Shown here: piece after piece, positions 1,833 through 7,173 of the stretch
How positions within the stretch are numbered: the stretch's first letter is position 1
Layout of the letters: each line of letters starts with the position of its first letter
Assembly: GCA_024227975.1 (NCBI GenBank)
Contig: JAAETV010000386.1
Location: 1-12,774, forward strand
From: Actinomycetes bacterium
GTDB lineage: Bacteria; Actinomycetota; Acidimicrobiia; Acidimicrobiales; SZUA-35
Reading direction: 5' to 3'
DNA: 12,774 nucleotides
Translations under genes and position numbers: made by a program
The notes under the pieces: generated by a model
What the model saw: the letters and a program-made list of their open reading frames with translations, nothing else
Databases searched by the model: none
Told to the model about the DNA's origin: nothing

Positions 1833-3269
1833 CTATCCGCGGTCGGCGAGGTCGTACTCGGCCATGTAGTACGGATGATCGGGATCAAAGGTGGTGAGCG
1901 GTACGGGGTCGGACACTCGGCCGACCGATCGACGGCCCTTGCCCTCGACGCCGGAGGCGCCATCACCGAGATCGTCTCTGGCCCGGTCGATGTGGCGAAG
2001 GAGCTCGGCGACGACATCGGGATGCGACTCGGCGACATTGGTGGTCTCAGCGATGTCGATCTCGAGGTCGTAGAGCTCCTGGATCGGCCCCGTGCCGCCG
2101 CGGCGGTTGGGGGACTTGTAGACGTGGAGCTTCCATCGGCCCGCACGTACGGCTTCGAGATCGGAGCCCGAGTAGTAGAAGAAGGCCTCATGGGGCGACG
2201 TGTTGTCCTCGCCCCGGAGGATCGATGAGATGTCGCGGCCGTCGATCGTGCGGTCGGACGGCACCTCGGCTCCACACCAGGCTGCGATCGTGGGGTAGAG
2301 ATCCATGGCCGTGGTCATGGCGTTGCTTTCGACCCCGGGCGGGATCTGGCCTGGCCAACGCACGATGCACGGCACTCGCTGGCCACCTTCCCAGGTAGTG
2401 CCCTTGTTGGCCCTCAGAGGGAGGTTGCTCCCCTCGCCGGGGCGGGCGAGGGCTCCGTTGTCGCTGGTGAAGATGACGATGGTGTTGTCGTCGATGCCCA
2501 GTTGGCCCAACTCGTGCAGGAGCACGTCGGCGGCCCAGTCGATGCACCGAACCGCTGCCCCGTAGGGGCCGTTGCGCGACTCCTCGGCGAATCGGGGCTG
2601 GACGTAGATGGGCAGGTGGACGTACATGTGGGCGAAATACAAGAAGAAAGGCTCGTCTTGTTTCTCGCGGATGAACCGGACGGACTCCTGGAGATAGCGC
2701 GAGGTGAGCGACGCCTGGTCAGGCTGAGCCTCGATCACGTCCTCATCGAGCAACAACGGCAATGGGACCTGGAGCGGTGGCGGCAGCTTGATGTCGAACT
2801 TCTCTTCGATATCAGCACGTTCCTCGGCGGTGAGGGCGTTGGGCTGAATACCCATGTCGTTGCTGTAGGGCAGCCCGAGCCAATGATCGAAGCCGTGGCG
2901 GGTCGGGAGAAACTCGGGCTGATCACCGCAATGCCACTTGCCGACCATCATCGTCGAATAGCCGGCGTCCTTGAGTAGACGGGCGATCGTCACCTCCGAT
3001 GGGTTCAGGCCGACGCCCATTCCCGGAAACAGCACGTGGATGCCGTCGAAGTTGTCGAACCCGATCCGGGCCGGATAGCAGCCCGTGAGCATCGCTCCCC
3101 GCGATGGCGAGCAGACCGGCGATGCCATGTAGAAGTCCGTCAGGCGGGTGCCCTCGGCTGCCATGCGGTCTAGGGCCGGGGTGTCGTGGACCTGAGACCC
3201 GTAGCAGCCAAGATCGCCATAGCCGAGGTCGTCGCAATTGATGAGGATCACATTGGGGCGGTCACTCAT
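1833..3269 (-). CDS. Sulfatase (arylsulfatase family, formylglycine type)
   Basis: A 478-aa sulfate-ester hydrolase of the alkaline-phosphatase-like fold. The N-terminal metal ligands are in NCDDLGYGDLG (Asp13, Asp14). The active-site signature C-S-P-S-R is at residues 53-57, followed by GAMLTG, so Cys53 should be converted to formylglycine. GKWH (about 110-113) and TSDNG (Asp270-Asn271) supply further conserved active-site residues, followed by TTWEGGQRVP and VRWPG. The length is normal for the family. The protein begins MSDRPNVILIN with no Sec or Tat signal, so it is predicted cytoplasmic, which is less common for sulfatases. The start is chosen because the conserved core begins at once and AAGGA lies 9 nt upstream; the frame runs on to 3527, but that part is Arg-rich and non-homologous. 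No sulfatase-modifying enzyme is encoded nearby. The substrate cannot be told. Confidence 0.93.
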   Translation of the reverse strand: MSDRPNVILINCDDLGYGDLGCYGSQVHDTPALDRMAAEGTRLTDFYMASPVCSPSRGAMLTGCYPARIGFDNFDGIHVLFPGMGVGLNPSEVTIARLLKDAGYSTMMVGKWHCGDQPEFLPTRHGFDHWLGLPYSNDMGIQPNALTAEERADIEEKFDIKLPPPLQVPLPLLLDEDVIEAQPDQASLTSRYLQESVRFIREKQDEPFFLYFAHMYVHLPIYVQPRFAEESRNGPYGAAVRCIDWAADVLLHELGQLGIDDNTIVIFTSDNGALARPGEGSNLPLRANKGTTWEGGQRVPCIVRWPGQIPPGVESNAMTTAMDLYPTIAAWCGAEVPSDRTIDGRDISSILRGEDNTSPHEAFFYYSGSDLEAVRAGRWKLHVYKSPNRRGGTGPIQELYDLEIDIAETTNVAESHPDVVAELLRHIDRARDDLGDGASGVEGKGRRSVGRVSDPVPLTTFDPDHPYYMAEYDLADRG

Positions 3270-3543
3270 GTTGGGAGTTCCTTGGTTGGAGCGCCGGATG
3301 CCGCTTCGTTCGTGGCTTCGATACCGACAACGGGGGCGACGGCGTCTGATCGTTCGTTGCGCTCGCCTACCCCCACGAGCGGAGCGTACATAGGACGGGA
3401 CGACTTGCACAATGTATGAGTCGGCGATGCGTATGGAGTGCATGGACATCGACACCCTCCGATTCCACCCTGACAAACAGGGGACCGCCTGGGCTGTGTC
3501 GGATACCACCCCAACAGAACCCCGCACCGAGGAGAGACCGTCG
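3270..3543. other. Intergenic region upstream of the sulfatase
   Basis: This forms most of the 394-nt divergent gap between the sulfatase and the DUF6544-like gene. No convincing gene, RNA or repeat was found here. It should hold the sulfatase promoter; a TATGTA at about 3390 on the minus strand is a weak -10 candidate. The rest of the gap is the duplicated leader annotated separately. Confidence 0.5.
3279..3283 (-). promoter_or_regulatory. Ribosome binding site of the sulfatase
   Basis: AAGGA on the minus strand sits 9 nt before the ATG at 3269 and supports that start over upstream in-frame starts. Confidence 0.6.
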
Positions 3544-3655
3544 CGGGGAAGAGACGTTTGGATGATGGTCGAGGCGACTTCTGCCTGATTCGGATGGTTC
3601 AGGGTCCGATCAGGCTGTCTTCAGCAGCTCGAGTCGAGCTTCTGAGAACAAGGAG
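3544..3655 (+). repeat. Duplicated leader element, copy A (upstream of the DUF6544-like gene)
   Basis: This 112-nt stretch aligns without gaps to 4746-4857, with about 87 of 112 positions identical by hand count. The core GAGACGTTTGGATGATGG (3551-3568) is identical in both copies. The small hairpin-forming GCTG-TCTT-CAGC (3614-3625) is also identical. The copy ends in AAGGAG, the ribosome site of the following gene, 9 nt before its ATG. A nine-codon frame (ATG ATG ... TGA, 3562-3588) occurs at the same place in both copies. It probably contains promoter and regulator-binding sequences shared by the two transcription units. Confidence 0.85.
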
Positions 3656-3663
3656 AAAGAGCA

Positions 3664-4629
3664 ATGTCGACCACCATCCACCCCCCAGACACTGACACTC
3701 CCAAATCCCCAAACGACACCACGACGGGTGGCCGTCGGGGGGCGCCGCATCGCCGAAAAGGGGCCGGCCGCGCCCGACGCTTCCTCAAAGGCTCGTTGAT
3801 GGTTCTGGCCGCCATCATCGCGGTATTGGGCGTGACGGTTGCATACTCGGCTCGACAAACCGAGGCAGAAATCCGGGGCTTCCGCAATCGAGTCGAAGTC
3901 ATCGGAGTGGCGAACCCTTCGCCTGTGTATGACGCCGCTGTAGTCAGCGAGTTACCCAAGCCGGTCCAGCGGTATTTCGACTACACGTTCGTCGAGTCCC
4001 ACAAGCCAATCGAGTTTGTCGAGCTGACCATGGAAGGAGAATTCCGCCGGCCGCTGACCGACGGGTTCTCGCCAACGACCGCTGAGCAAACCGTCGCGGT
4101 TGGTGTCCCCGGCCTGATGTTTTCGGCCCGCACCACCATGGTCCCGGGGATCTGGGCTCGAGCCTATGACTTCTATTCCGAGGGCCAGATGGAGATGAAG
4201 GCGAAGGTCATGTCCACACTCACAGTGGTAGATGAGTCCGAAACCCCGGAACTCAACCAGACGTCGCTGCGGCGCTGGCTGCTCGAGAGTCCGATGTACC
4301 CCGCAGCGCTCCTGCCCGGTGGACCGGTCCACTGGGAGCCTATCGATGAGACCCATGCTCGGGCCATCGTGGTCGCTGACGGTCTCGAGGCCTCACTCGT
4401 TGCCACCTTTCGCCCCGACGGCAGCCTCGAGTCCTTCGCGGCGGAAGAGGACGGAGACCTGACCACTCCCTATCACGGCTCGGGCGAACATGTGCTGCGA
4501 GGCGACTACCGGCTCGTTGATGGGATGATGATCCCCCACAGCTTCACGATCTCAAGAGCCAACGGAGGTGAGAGGTTCCCGTTCTGGACCGGCCAGGTTG
4601 AGACCATTGGCTACCACACTGTTGGCTGA
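3664..4629 (+). CDS. Membrane-anchored DUF6544-family protein
   Basis: This 321-aa protein has a polar Pro/Thr/Asp N-terminus (1-20), a strongly basic stretch (about 24-42) and one hydrophobic helix (about 44-62). By the positive-inside rule the remaining 260 residues face outside. The domain resembles DUF6544: LPKPVQRYF near residue 97, a 'V-x-L-T-M-E-GEFR' strand, PGLMFSARTTMVPG, RAYDFYSEGQMEMKAKVMSTLTVVD, SLRRWLLESPMYP, PVHWEPIDETHARA and ATFRPDGSLESFAAE. The family has no established function. AAGGAG precedes the ATG by 8 nt, and the 14-bp hairpin downstream suggests a monocistronic unit. Its leader is duplicated in front of the neighbouring two-component operon, so it is likely co-regulated with it. 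The family call is from remembered motif order, not a search. Confidence 0.75.
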   Translation: MSTTIHPPDTDTPKSPNDTTTGGRRGAPHRRKGAGRARRFLKGSLMVLAAIIAVLGVTVAYSARQTEAEIRGFRNRVEVIGVANPSPVYDAAVVSELPKPVQRYFDYTFVESHKPIEFVELTMEGEFRRPLTDGFSPTTAEQTVAVGVPGLMFSARTTMVPGIWARAYDFYSEGQMEMKAKVMSTLTVVDESETPELNQTSLRRWLLESPMYPAALLPGGPVHWEPIDETHARAIVVADGLEASLVATFRPDGSLESFAAEEDGDLTTPYHGSGEHVLRGDYRLVDGMMIPHSFTISRANGGERFPFWTGQVETIGYHTVG

Positions 4630-4655
4630 ACGGTGACCTGTTTCGCCTTCTCAAT

Positions 4656-4688
4656 CGACCCCGTCGGACTATTGGTCCGACGGGGTCG
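4656..4688 (+). terminator. Perfect 14-bp hairpin terminator without T-run
   Basis: The arms CGACCCCGTCGGAC (4656-4669) and GTCCGACGGGGTCG (4675-4688) are exactly complementary around a 5-nt TATTG loop, starting 27 nt after the stop of the DUF6544-like gene. No T-rich tract follows. Such hairpins are common as terminators in high-GC actinobacteria. Confidence 0.75.
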
Positions 4689-4745
4689 CTCGCGTCCTCT
4701 CATCGGTGTCACACAGGTGGTGACGTCAGCCATGCCGCCGATGAC

Positions 4746-4857
4746 CGGGGATGAGACGTTTGGATGATGGGCAAGGCGACCTTTGCCTGACTCGGCCGGC
4801 TCGGGATCCGCTCAAGCTGTCTTCAGCGGCTCAACGGAAGCTACTCGAAGCAAGGAA
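4746..4857 (+). repeat. Duplicated leader element, copy B (upstream of the two-component operon)
   Basis: This is the second copy of the leader at 3544-3655, offset by exactly 1202 nt throughout with no insertions or deletions. The identical 18-nt core lies at 4753-4770 and the GCTG-TCTT-CAGC hairpin at 4816-4827. It ends in AAGGAA, 9 nt before the ATG of the 65-aa protein, the same distance as in copy A. The nine-codon frame is at 4764-4790. Divergence is greatest in the last 25 nt before the ribosome site. It is likely the promoter/leader of the small-protein, kinase and regulator operon. Confidence 0.85.
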
Positions 4858-4865
4858 CCAGGACT

Positions 4866-5063
4866 ATGGCCGATTCTGACGGTGAACGAAGCGATCAGAC
4901 CCCGGCTCATCCACCCGAGAACGCGGGCGGTGTCCATCAACCCGCAGGTATCCGCACCGGTACCATTGGTGCCAGCTTCGCCTCCTTGGCCACCGCCAGC
5001 ATCCTCATCCCGGTGCGAGACGACGACTCAGGCCTGCTTGCCGGGCAGACTGGACGACCGTGA
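4866..5063 (+). CDS. Small unknown protein (65 aa) leading the two-component operon
   Basis: The protein is not recognised. The first half is hydrophilic and rich in Asp, Pro, His and Gln. A weakly hydrophobic stretch of about 19 residues follows (GTIGASFASLATASILIPV, about residues 31-49), which could be a short membrane segment or an amphipathic helix, and then a polar tail. It is supported as a gene by three things: AAGGAA lies 9 nt upstream, its start is at the same distance from the duplicated leader as the DUF6544-like gene, and its stop overlaps the kinase start as GTGA (5060-5063). Codons are mostly G/C-ending. It may be a leader or coupling gene for kinase translation, or an accessory subunit of the sensor. 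A frame overlapping it from 4783 is judged a shadow. Confidence 0.6.
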   Translation: MADSDGERSDQTPAHPPENAGGVHQPAGIRTGTIGASFASLATASILIPVRDDDSGLLAGQTGRP

Positions 5064-6256
5064 TCGCTCTCTCCTCGACCGACGGTGAGCAAATCCCAAG
5101 CAAGGGCGACATCGCCTTGGCTGCGAGTCTGCTCGGCATTGCGATCCTCTCGGGCTTCTTCGTCGACGTCAATCGGCCCGATACCATCGAACCCTCGACC
5201 TGGTGGCACTGGCTCCTCATCGCCACCCCACCGATCCTGGTTGCGGTCCGCCGCCTCAACCCAATCCCGGTCACGATGCTCGCCGCAGTCGCCCAGTCCG
5301 GTATCTGGATCAGCAACCTCCCTGAGGTCCTGCTCTCGGTCATCGTGATCCTGTACACCGCTGCATCTGACGCCGACAAGCGAGGGTTGCAGGTTGCAGT
5401 CCTAGCGAGCACGGTGCTCACCGTCGTCACCGGGATCGGGGTGCGTATCGCCGACGACGTCACCCTCTATCAGCTCCCACTCATCGTCCTCACCTGTGGC
5501 ACTGCGATCGCACTCGGCGTCAACGCGTCGCGGCAACGACGAGTCGCCGAGGAGCTTGCAGCCCACATGGCCGAAGTCCGCGTTCGAAACGAACACGAAC
5601 GGGCCCAGGCCGTTGCCGACGAACGCTCGCACATTGCTCGAGAACTACACGACATCATCGGACACACCCTGTCGGTCATTGCGGTACGGGCCGAAGCCGC
5701 AGACCGTGTTGCAAAACATCAGCCAGGCGTCGCCGGAGAGGCCGTTGCGGATATTGCCGGAGCAGCACGCTCGGCGCTCAACCAGACCAGGCGGGTCCTC
5801 GCCGGCCTCCGCCAATCGGCTGTCACTGATCTCGCCCCAGCCCCAGACCTCGACGCAACCCGACGACTCGTCACCGACCTGGCCGAGGCCGGGGTCGATG
5901 CAACCCTCAGCGAGCAAGGCTGTGATGACCACAACCCGCCGACAGTCGTTGCCAGCGGAGCGCACCGGATCATCCAGGAATCGCTAACCAACGCCATCAA
6001 ACACGGCGGACCCGGTGTCACCATCAATGTCCAACTCACCTGCGGTCCAGCCGAGCTCGAGATCAGCGTGACCAACAACCTCAACCAACCAACCACGGCC
6101 GCTCTACCAGACGCTGGAGGGGCCGGCCTCACGGGGATGGCTGAACGGGCCGACATTCTCGGCGGTGCATTTGACGCCCAGCAAACCGGTGACCGCTTCA
6201 TCGTCCACGCCACCCTCCCCACCGGAAGTGCTCAGCCCGAAAGGGCCGCCCCATGA
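5060..6256 (+). CDS. Sensor histidine kinase, NarL/HPK7 type
   Basis: This 398-aa kinase should autophosphorylate and pass phosphate to the regulator encoded next. Residues about 17-155 form an integral-membrane sensor with several hydrophobic segments (about 18-36, 50-63, 70-84, 90-102, 112-128, 138-154) and little extracytoplasmic sequence, as in intramembrane-sensing actinobacterial kinases. A short coiled linker (about 158-188) precedes the HisKA_3 dimerisation region with DERSHIARELHDIIGHTLS, His197 being the phospho-acceptor. The ATPase domain follows, with N-box QESLTNAIKHG (about 304-315) and G-box GGAGLTGMAERADILGG (about 352-368). The GTG start overlaps the stop of the 65-aa gene (GTGA) and no ribosome site is visible, so translation is probably coupled. 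The 3' end overlaps the regulator by ATGA. The signal it senses cannot be inferred. Confidence 0.93.
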   Translation: MIALSSTDGEQIPSKGDIALAASLLGIAILSGFFVDVNRPDTIEPSTWWHWLLIATPPILVAVRRLNPIPVTMLAAVAQSGIWISNLPEVLLSVIVILYTAASDADKRGLQVAVLASTVLTVVTGIGVRIADDVTLYQLPLIVLTCGTAIALGVNASRQRRVAEELAAHMAEVRVRNEHERAQAVADERSHIARELHDIIGHTLSVIAVRAEAADRVAKHQPGVAGEAVADIAGAARSALNQTRRVLAGLRQSAVTDLAPAPDLDATRRLVTDLAEAGVDATLSEQGCDDHNPPTVVASGAHRIIQESLTNAIKHGGPGVTINVQLTCGPAELEISVTNNLNQPTTAALPDAGGAGLTGMAERADILGGAFDAQQTGDRFIVHATLPTGSAQPERAAP

Positions 6257-6915
6257 TCAGAGTTGCTATCGCCGACGACCTGGACATGATCCGAGCCGGG
6301 TTCGAGCTCATCATCAACAACGAGCCTGACATGAGCGTTGTCGCCTCGGTCGCCAACGGTCTCGAGATCATCGAAGCATGCCGGACTCGGCGGGTCGATG
6401 TTGTTCTGATGGACATCCGCATGCCACAACTTGATGGCCTCGCCGCTACCGAGGAGATCATGACCCAAGCCGACCCGCCACGGATCTTGATCCTCACCAC
6501 CTTTGGCCTCGACGAGTACGTGTCCACTGCCATCGTTGCCGGCGCCTCGGGCTTCCTGCTCAAAGACGCATCGTCTACAGACCTCATTGATGCCGTCCGC
6601 TCGGTCGCTGCGGGCGATGTCGCGATTGCACCATCGCTCGTCCGCGTCGTGGTCGAACAAGCCCGAACCTCACTCCAGGTTCGTCGCGTCCCAGGCATCG
6701 ATGAACTCACTGAGCGAGAGAGCCAGGTACTCCAACACCTGGCCGCGGGTCGATCCAACGCTGAGATCGCCGAACAGCTCTACCTCAGCGAGGCAACCGT
6801 CAAGACACATCTCAGCCGCGTGCTGACCAAGCTTGGCGTACGTGACCGCGTCCAAGCTGTCATCGCCGCCTTCGCCGCTGGCATCGCCCAGCCCGACCCA
6901 GACCAGAGAGCGTGA
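6253..6915 (+). CDS. Response regulator, NarL/FixJ (LuxR HTH) family
   Basis: A 220-aa DNA-binding regulator and cognate partner of the adjacent kinase. The receiver domain (1 to about 120) has the acidic pair Asp8-Asp9, the phospho-acceptor Asp54 in LMDIRMPQLDG, Thr82/Thr83 in LILTTFGLDEY and Lys104 in FLLKDAS, so all switch residues are intact. The LuxR-type helix-turn-helix occupies about 151-205, with LTERESQVLQHLAAGRSN, AEIAEQLYLSEATVKTHLSR and LTKLGVRDR. Its ATG overlaps the kinase stop (ATGA, 6253-6256). A plausible target is the duplicated leader in front of its own operon and of the DUF6544-like gene; this is inferred from position only. A decayed exporter gene starts 7 nt after its stop and was probably once part of the same operon. 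Confidence 0.95.
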   Translation: MIRVAIADDLDMIRAGFELIINNEPDMSVVASVANGLEIIEACRTRRVDVVLMDIRMPQLDGLAATEEIMTQADPPRILILTTFGLDEYVSTAIVAGASGFLLKDASSTDLIDAVRSVAAGDVAIAPSLVRVVVEQARTSLQVRRVPGIDELTERESQVLQHLAAGRSNAEIAEQLYLSEATVKTHLSRVLTKLGVRDRVQAVIAAFAAGIAQPDPDQRA

Positions 6916-6922
6916 CGAGCAC

Positions 6923-7173
6923 ATGCCTAGCTACGGGATTCTCCTGAGTTTCTCGGCCGCGACGATCGTTCTCGTCATGTTGCCGGGTCCCAACCTGTTG
7001 TACATCGTCGGCAATGGGATCAGCAGTGGAAGGCGGGCCGCGCTGAGCGTGCCTCGGGATCAAGGCGCTTTGGACCACACCCAGTGAGCGGCCCGGCGTA
7101 GTTGCGGTGCCTCGGGCGACCTCGCGCACCTTGGGCCGCGGTCTCGTGGTCAACGTGTTGAACCTGAAGCGAA
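6923..7173 (+). pseudogene. LysE/RhtB-family exporter remnant
   Basis: From the ATG at 6923 the translation is a clear LysE/RhtB amino-acid exporter N-terminus, with a first hydrophobic helix, LPGPNLLYIVGNGI and SSGRRAALSV (about 43 residues). The frame then turns nonsensical and stops at 7085-7087. In another frame (third-position phase of 7053) the family's middle resumes: LGIKAL at 7053-7070 and RTLGRGLVVNVLNLK at 7122-7166, corresponding to the usual F-x-x-G-L-L-V-N-L-L-N-P-K. At least one internal deletion with frameshift (about 7047-7053) has removed the second membrane region. The C-terminal half is missing, ending at the stop of the convergent propeller gene. A 10-nt direct repeat GTGCCTCGGG (7049-7058, 7107-7116) has one copy at the break. 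Intact members are about 205 aa. Confidence 0.8.

Follow-up and report, generated by a model that had tools for sequence, protein, structure and literature searches.

A duplicated direct-repeat element as the probable operator of a two-component operon and a DUF6544 gene in an Acidimicrobiia-type bacterium

Autoregulated two-component operons are already a known kind of control circuit, VraSR and LiaFSR both being autoregulated. Membrane proteins and lipoproteins are described among the targets of MacR, the regulator of the MacRS system (PMC9739842). The locus considered here lies in a 12,774-nucleotide stretch of DNA analysed at its full length (the window), and resembles VraSR and LiaFSR in that a HisKA_3 kinase adjoins a receiver-GerE regulator, further small genes are present and a conserved site stands before its own operon; its kinase and regulator also belong to the same superfamilies as those of MacRS and MadRS. 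The nearest solved regulators by sequence are VraR, ChrA, NarL, DesR and DevR. We propose that a leader found twice in the window is probably the operator/promoter module of this autoregulated HisKA_3/NarL-type operon, and that it has been duplicated, with a DUF6544 gene under the same regulator.

The repeated leader and its surroundings

An earlier note on this DNA had reported two 112-nt stretches that match end to end without gaps, each ending shortly before a start codon with a ribosome site included, and both observations were borne out. The two copies, 1.2 kb apart, are identical at 87 of 112 positions (78%), the next best separate pair scoring 59 when all ungapped 112-nt pairs on the plus strand of the window are compared, and 8 nt separate the end of each copy from an ATG (at 3664 and 4866 respectively). 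Both 3' ends are Shine-Dalgarno-like, i.e. AAGGAG in copy 1 (3650-3655) and AAGGAA in copy 2 (4852-4857). The features of the locus are as follows.

1833-3422, minus strand: sulfatase (Pfam).
3544-3655, plus strand: first leader copy (copy 1), in front of the DUF6544 gene.
3553-3588, plus strand: core of copy 1, direct repeats at 3553-3565 and 3576-3588 in a 23-bp register, ATG 111 nt on (core present in 7 of 7 leaders).
3664-4629, plus strand: DUF6544/DUF6920 protein of 321 aa with a long N-terminal helix (Pfam; AlphaFold model of moderate quality, PDB comparison).
4656-4688, plus strand: strong hairpin between the two units with a 15-bp stem, terminator-like without a T-run (fold of 4640-4700, z -6.06).
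4746-4857, plus strand: second leader copy (copy 2), in front of the two-component operon.
4755-4790, plus strand: core of copy 2, direct repeats at 4755-4767 and 4778-4790, 111 nt to the ATG at 4866 (core present in 7 of 7 leaders).
4866-5063, plus strand: 65-aa ORF, an anthrone oxygenase (PF08592) remnant whose C-terminal 35 residues match a protein of the relative G030.
5060-6256, plus strand: HisKA_3 sensor histidine kinase, GTG start at 5060 (Pfam).
6253-6915, plus strand: NarL/LuxR-family response regulator, the proposed ligand of both operator copies (Pfam).
6923-7169, plus strand: decayed LysE-type exporter gene (tblastn matches in two frames).
After the regulator gene: convergent gene for a sortilin/BNR-like protein (Pfam).

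That copy 2 fronts the two-component operon, as the note also held, is correct insofar as it heads this operon; the nearest ATG, however, is that of the 65-aa ORF, and the kinase starts from its GTG further on. The core occurs exactly twice in the window, no further site being present on either strand at up to four mismatches. In the decayed exporter behind the regulator, nothing beyond residue 125 of 214 is matched locally on this strand; the LysE-type exporter is intact as the fourth gene of the operon in the relatives L001 and G030 (Pfam). Elsewhere in the window, at 285-1432 on the minus strand, ChrB_C and ChrB_N lie on two ORFs with a 4-nt overlap instead of on one protein.

The core in related genomes

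Seven leaders from six lineages were compared, i.e. the two window copies and those of L001, L033/G031, L034/G024, L063/G026 and L064/G055, the start being set at the ATG that a Shine-Dalgarno-like sequence precedes (in L033, L034, L063 and L064 this ATG lies within a longer mechanical ORF). Their alignment defines a core of 36 bp that consists of two 13-bp direct repeats, GACNTTYGGATGA-N10-GAYNTYYGNNYGA (blocks A and B), in a 23-bp register, and that begins 111, 111, 111, 107, 107, 112 and 110 nt before the ATG in the seven leaders. Over the 21 pairs, mean identity is 0.83 in blocks A and B (29 columns), 0.39 in the spacer, 0.37 in the 51 nt downstream and 0.26, i.e. chance level, in the 40 nt upstream; for the diverged leaders L001, L033, L034 and L063 the corresponding values are 0.82, 0.42, 0.25 and 0.21. 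Invariant columns number 11 of 13 in block A and 7 of 16 in block B plus 3 nt, with none among the 10 of the spacer, none among the 40 upstream and 2 among the 51 downstream. The window copies, L033 and L064 are mutually alike downstream of the core (0.49-0.73), so that conservation among closer relatives extends beyond the core. Blocks A and B are alike at 8.86 of 13 positions on average, a likeness reached by none of 300 permutations of all columns and none of 3000 permutations of the 39-column core.

The core heads an orthologous HisKA_3 kinase/NarL-type regulator operon in all five relatives with readable upstream DNA; for a sixth such operon, that of G030, the contig stops 4 nt before the first gene and the upstream sequence is unreadable. 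Kinase and regulator follow in the same order in L001, G031, G024, G030, G026 and G055. The G055 kinase gene is broken (L064, 5539-7283), with its matches in separate pieces and part of the membrane region missing, and the core, the two first genes and the regulator are in place despite this. The window regulator is 83% identical to that of L001, 86% to that of G031 and 72% to that of G024, and the helix-turn-helix of the seven orthologues reads [LI][ST]RVL vs VGR[VI]L in 13 of 15 paralogues in genomes of the same family.

Kinase and motif searches bear on how closely the core is tied to this operon. Among 394 sampled genomes of the order, a kinase search that scored four candidates per genome, and could thus have missed orthologues, gave six matches at E up to 1e-50, with identities of 70% (G001), 67% (G031), 56% (G024) and at most 38% for the other three. 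Across 39 genomes of the family of G002, the orthologues from a separate kinase search (E up to 1e-45) number five, namely G030, G031, G024, G026 and the fragmented G055, which are 54-71% identical, all other listed matches being at most 38%. The motif search of the same 39 genomes, made without protein information and at up to two mismatches with a pattern from the first five leaders, gave 10 sites in 9 genomes vs 5 for a reversed-pattern control. Four of these sites head orthologous kinase operons, those of G031 and G024, already known, and those of G026 and G055, which lay outside the motif set; the core was thereby found with four of the five kinase orthologues, the fifth being the unreadable G030. 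The other six sites, with no match to kinase, regulator, DUF6544, anthrone oxygenase, exporter or hydrophobic protein within up to 1.5 kb on each side, are taken as chance.

When a refined pattern was applied to 264 genomes sampled from the order, exact sites appeared in G001, G024 and G031 only, each at this operon, together with one two-mismatch site, in G573, without operon genes nearby (four sites vs two for the reversed control). Judged by the two controls, weak core matches are largely chance. The matches in G001, G024 and G031 follow from the construction of the pattern, the independent evidence being the G026 and G055 matches and the absence elsewhere. The six non-operon sites and the G573 site sit within mechanical ORFs of 229-769 aa; location within an ORF was dropped as a sign of a false site, four of the seven true cores also lying within mechanical ORFs (about 200-540 aa). 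The exact window-core pattern, with 22 specified bases, had no match in viral_contigs or genome_contigs, and is too strict because relatives differ in the spacer.

The first gene behind the core differs between lineages, being a DUF6544 gene, an anthrone oxygenase gene or a gene for an unnamed hydrophobic protein. It is DUF6544 behind window copy 1 and in L001, an Acidimicrobiia metagenome-assembled genome in which a single core copy is followed by DUF6544, kinase, regulator and LysE-type exporter, and which is the only relative of readable context to hold both DUF6544 and kinase/regulator, both behind one core. The order in G031 is core, a 149-aa hydrophobic protein without a Pfam match, kinase and regulator, and in G024 core, anthrone oxygenase, kinase and regulator; in G055 the anthrone oxygenase is preceded by a hydrophobic protein resembling the one of G031. 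Scanning of the operon neighbours gave matches to DUF6544/DUF6920, Anthrone_oxy (PF08592; above cut-off in proteins of G024, G030, G026 and G055) and LysE. The hydrophobic protein of about 140-150 aa (L033, 2126-2575; L064, 7619-8044; 68% identical over 99 residues) matches no Pfam family in either locus and is placed between core and kinase in both.

DUF6544 itself has many members, with 614 homologues at E up to 0.001; the close relatives P0001, P0003-P0007, P0009 and P0010 are 71-84% identical over the aligned region. When genome_contigs was scanned with an alignment of 21 DUF6544 members, 24 loci were recovered, two of them titled Acidimicrobiia or Acidimicrobiales, and a kinase/regulator match was absent from the available flanks at 23 of the 24, including the 22 more distant loci (L003-L024; E up to 1e-8). 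DUF6544 searches of 20, 39, 395, 397 and 397 overlapping genomes (E up to 1e-30; five candidates per genome scored in the last three) returned only G001 and G002. DUF6544 alone as the carrier of the element was rejected, as in G002 (L002) a DUF6544 gene occurs but the core does not, and the available flanks show no kinase or regulator match. The DUF6544 product possibly has a LolA/LolB-like domain, although Foldseek TM-scores of its moderate model (pLDDT 67) against this fold are 0.15-0.33 and sequence identity to LolA/LolB-fold proteins (with RseB/MucB and LppX as weaker resemblances) is 3-11%.

A putative operator and the competing readings

Taken together, these data make it likely that the core is an operator. 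In the mechanism that we propose, the phosphorylated regulator (6253-6915) would bind both 13-bp direct repeats, which lie some 110 nt ahead of the start codon, and binding would switch the transcript behind the core. In relatives one module would head one or two variable small genes, kinase and regulator, with a LysE-type exporter in L001 and G030; in the window two modules would head a DUF6544 unit and a kinase/regulator unit, with the hairpin between them and the same regulator acting on both. That the regulator binds, in which direction it controls and to what signal the pair responds are inferred, and the signal is probably the state of the envelope.

The strongest competitor, which we nonetheless regard as improbable, is that an alternative (ECF-type) sigma factor uses the core as its promoter, the blocks serving as -35 and -10 elements. 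Two conserved blocks at a fixed spacing and a nearly fixed distance from the start codon would suit such a promoter, as would the lack of a TA dinucleotide, hence of any TANNNT -10 box, in copy 1. The usual distance between -35 and -10 is 16-18 bp, however, whereas the blocks measure 13 and about 16 bp with a 10-bp spacer, and they resemble each other; moreover, one would expect other genes to be served by a sigma factor as well, yet exact sites occur only at the kinase/regulator operon (39 and 264 genomes).

That a tandem duplication of a promoter region was kept by chance, free of functional constraint, is very unlikely. The proximity of the copies and their identity over the whole 112 nt are what it would predict, but the core keeps an identity of 0.82 in relatives whose other leader sequence is at chance level. 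Nor do the copies look recent: of 90 positions, 65 are identical between copy 1 and L033, 64 between copy 2 and L033 and 71 between the two copies, i.e. each is nearly as close to L033 as to the other. The duplication accordingly does not look recent.

Even less speaks for a conserved 5' UTR that works as an RNA leader, whether riboswitch or attenuator. Leader length is nearly constant, and copy 1 alone folds better than its shuffles (z -2.65), but copy 2 folds worse than its own (z +2.69), the consensus of the seven leaders reaches only -0.79 kcal/mol with 8 pairs, an Rfam search gave no match, and the constraint takes the form of two short blocks with a free spacer. A structured RNA leader was rejected on the Rfam, consensus-fold and single-fold results; since the leaders show chance identity ahead of the core and no common RNA fold, the element would act as DNA. 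A dispersed mobile or REP-like repeat, suggested by two neighbouring copies in one window, is scarcely credible given at most two sites per genome at up to two mismatches, exact sites in the relatives only at this operon (39 and 264 genomes) and the fixed distance to the ATG.

The operator reading retains much of what the earlier note had proposed. Its suggestion of a cis-regulatory element common to the DUF6544 gene and the two-component operon is supported by the core conserved in relatives, and the outcomes that it had set against itself did not appear: hundreds of unlinked copies are absent from the relatives' genomes (39; 264), and the element is not lost from relatives that keep the genes, all five readable orthologous operons carrying it. 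Its description of a conserved 112-nt leader needs revision on two counts, as the constraint across relatives covers the 36-bp core, not all 112 nt, and the conserved cis-element, having no common RNA structure, is better viewed as a DNA operator/promoter.

If the operator reading holds, the locus would be a case of an operator whose geometry stays nearly fixed while the gene served changes between lineages. It would supply an uncharacterised two-component system of Acidimicrobiia-type bacteria with a candidate binding site of 36 bp, and would tie DUF6544/DUF6920, a family of unassigned function, to a two-component circuit. More tentatively, and with considerable doubt on our part, the core and its leader of about 110 nt might constitute a portable control cassette in which geometry and ATG distance are kept and the gene behind is exchanged, one sensor/regulator pair thereby recruiting unrelated envelope-type proteins through an operator that is copied or retained.

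History of the two units and comparison with described systems

The 65-aa ORF behind copy 2 bears on what that copy formerly controlled. Its C-terminal 35 residues can be aligned to the final part of the anthrone oxygenase of G030 with a score of 64, reached by none of 2000 shuffles, and 82 nt of DNA in this region align with G030 without gaps (none of 1000 shuffles); matches to the other three anthrone-type proteins are weak, 39, 187 and 589 of 2000 shuffles reaching the score. A protein search with the ORF returned itself alone (database predicted protein P0121). We rejected the ORF as a real new gene on the strength of the G030 match, which indicates that copy 2 probably once headed an operon of anthrone oxygenase, kinase, regulator and exporter like that of G030. 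In L001 the 38-nt spacer between DUF6544 and kinase keeps 15 of 16 bases of the stretch that precedes the kinase in the window (1 of 1000 shuffles). This would fit the loss of a copy-2-like segment from L001, in which case the two-unit arrangement of the window would be the older.

The literature searched, mainly titles and abstracts, contained neither the direct-repeat core, this operon nor the DUF6544 link, no paper with the term DUF6544, and none combining two-component, anthrone oxygenase, response regulator and operon. In NCBIfam, both proteins stay below the cut-off of every family listed, of which there were six for the kinase and, for the regulator, the best 25 out of 83. The window regulator scores 138.3 vs an equivalog cut-off of 300 for MadRS, and the kinase 31.6 vs 500 for MadRS and 21.2 vs 300 for MacRS, all below. 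The MacR site, furthermore, is a palindrome, whereas the window core is a direct repeat, and the 23-bp direct repeat likewise departs from the inverted half-site arrangement usual for NarL-family regulators. No LiaF-named Pfam domain was matched among the scanned proteins of the window and its relatives. Relative to VraSR and LiaFSR, the locus is set apart by its core, a 13-bp direct repeat in a 23-bp register, and by a first gene that varies.
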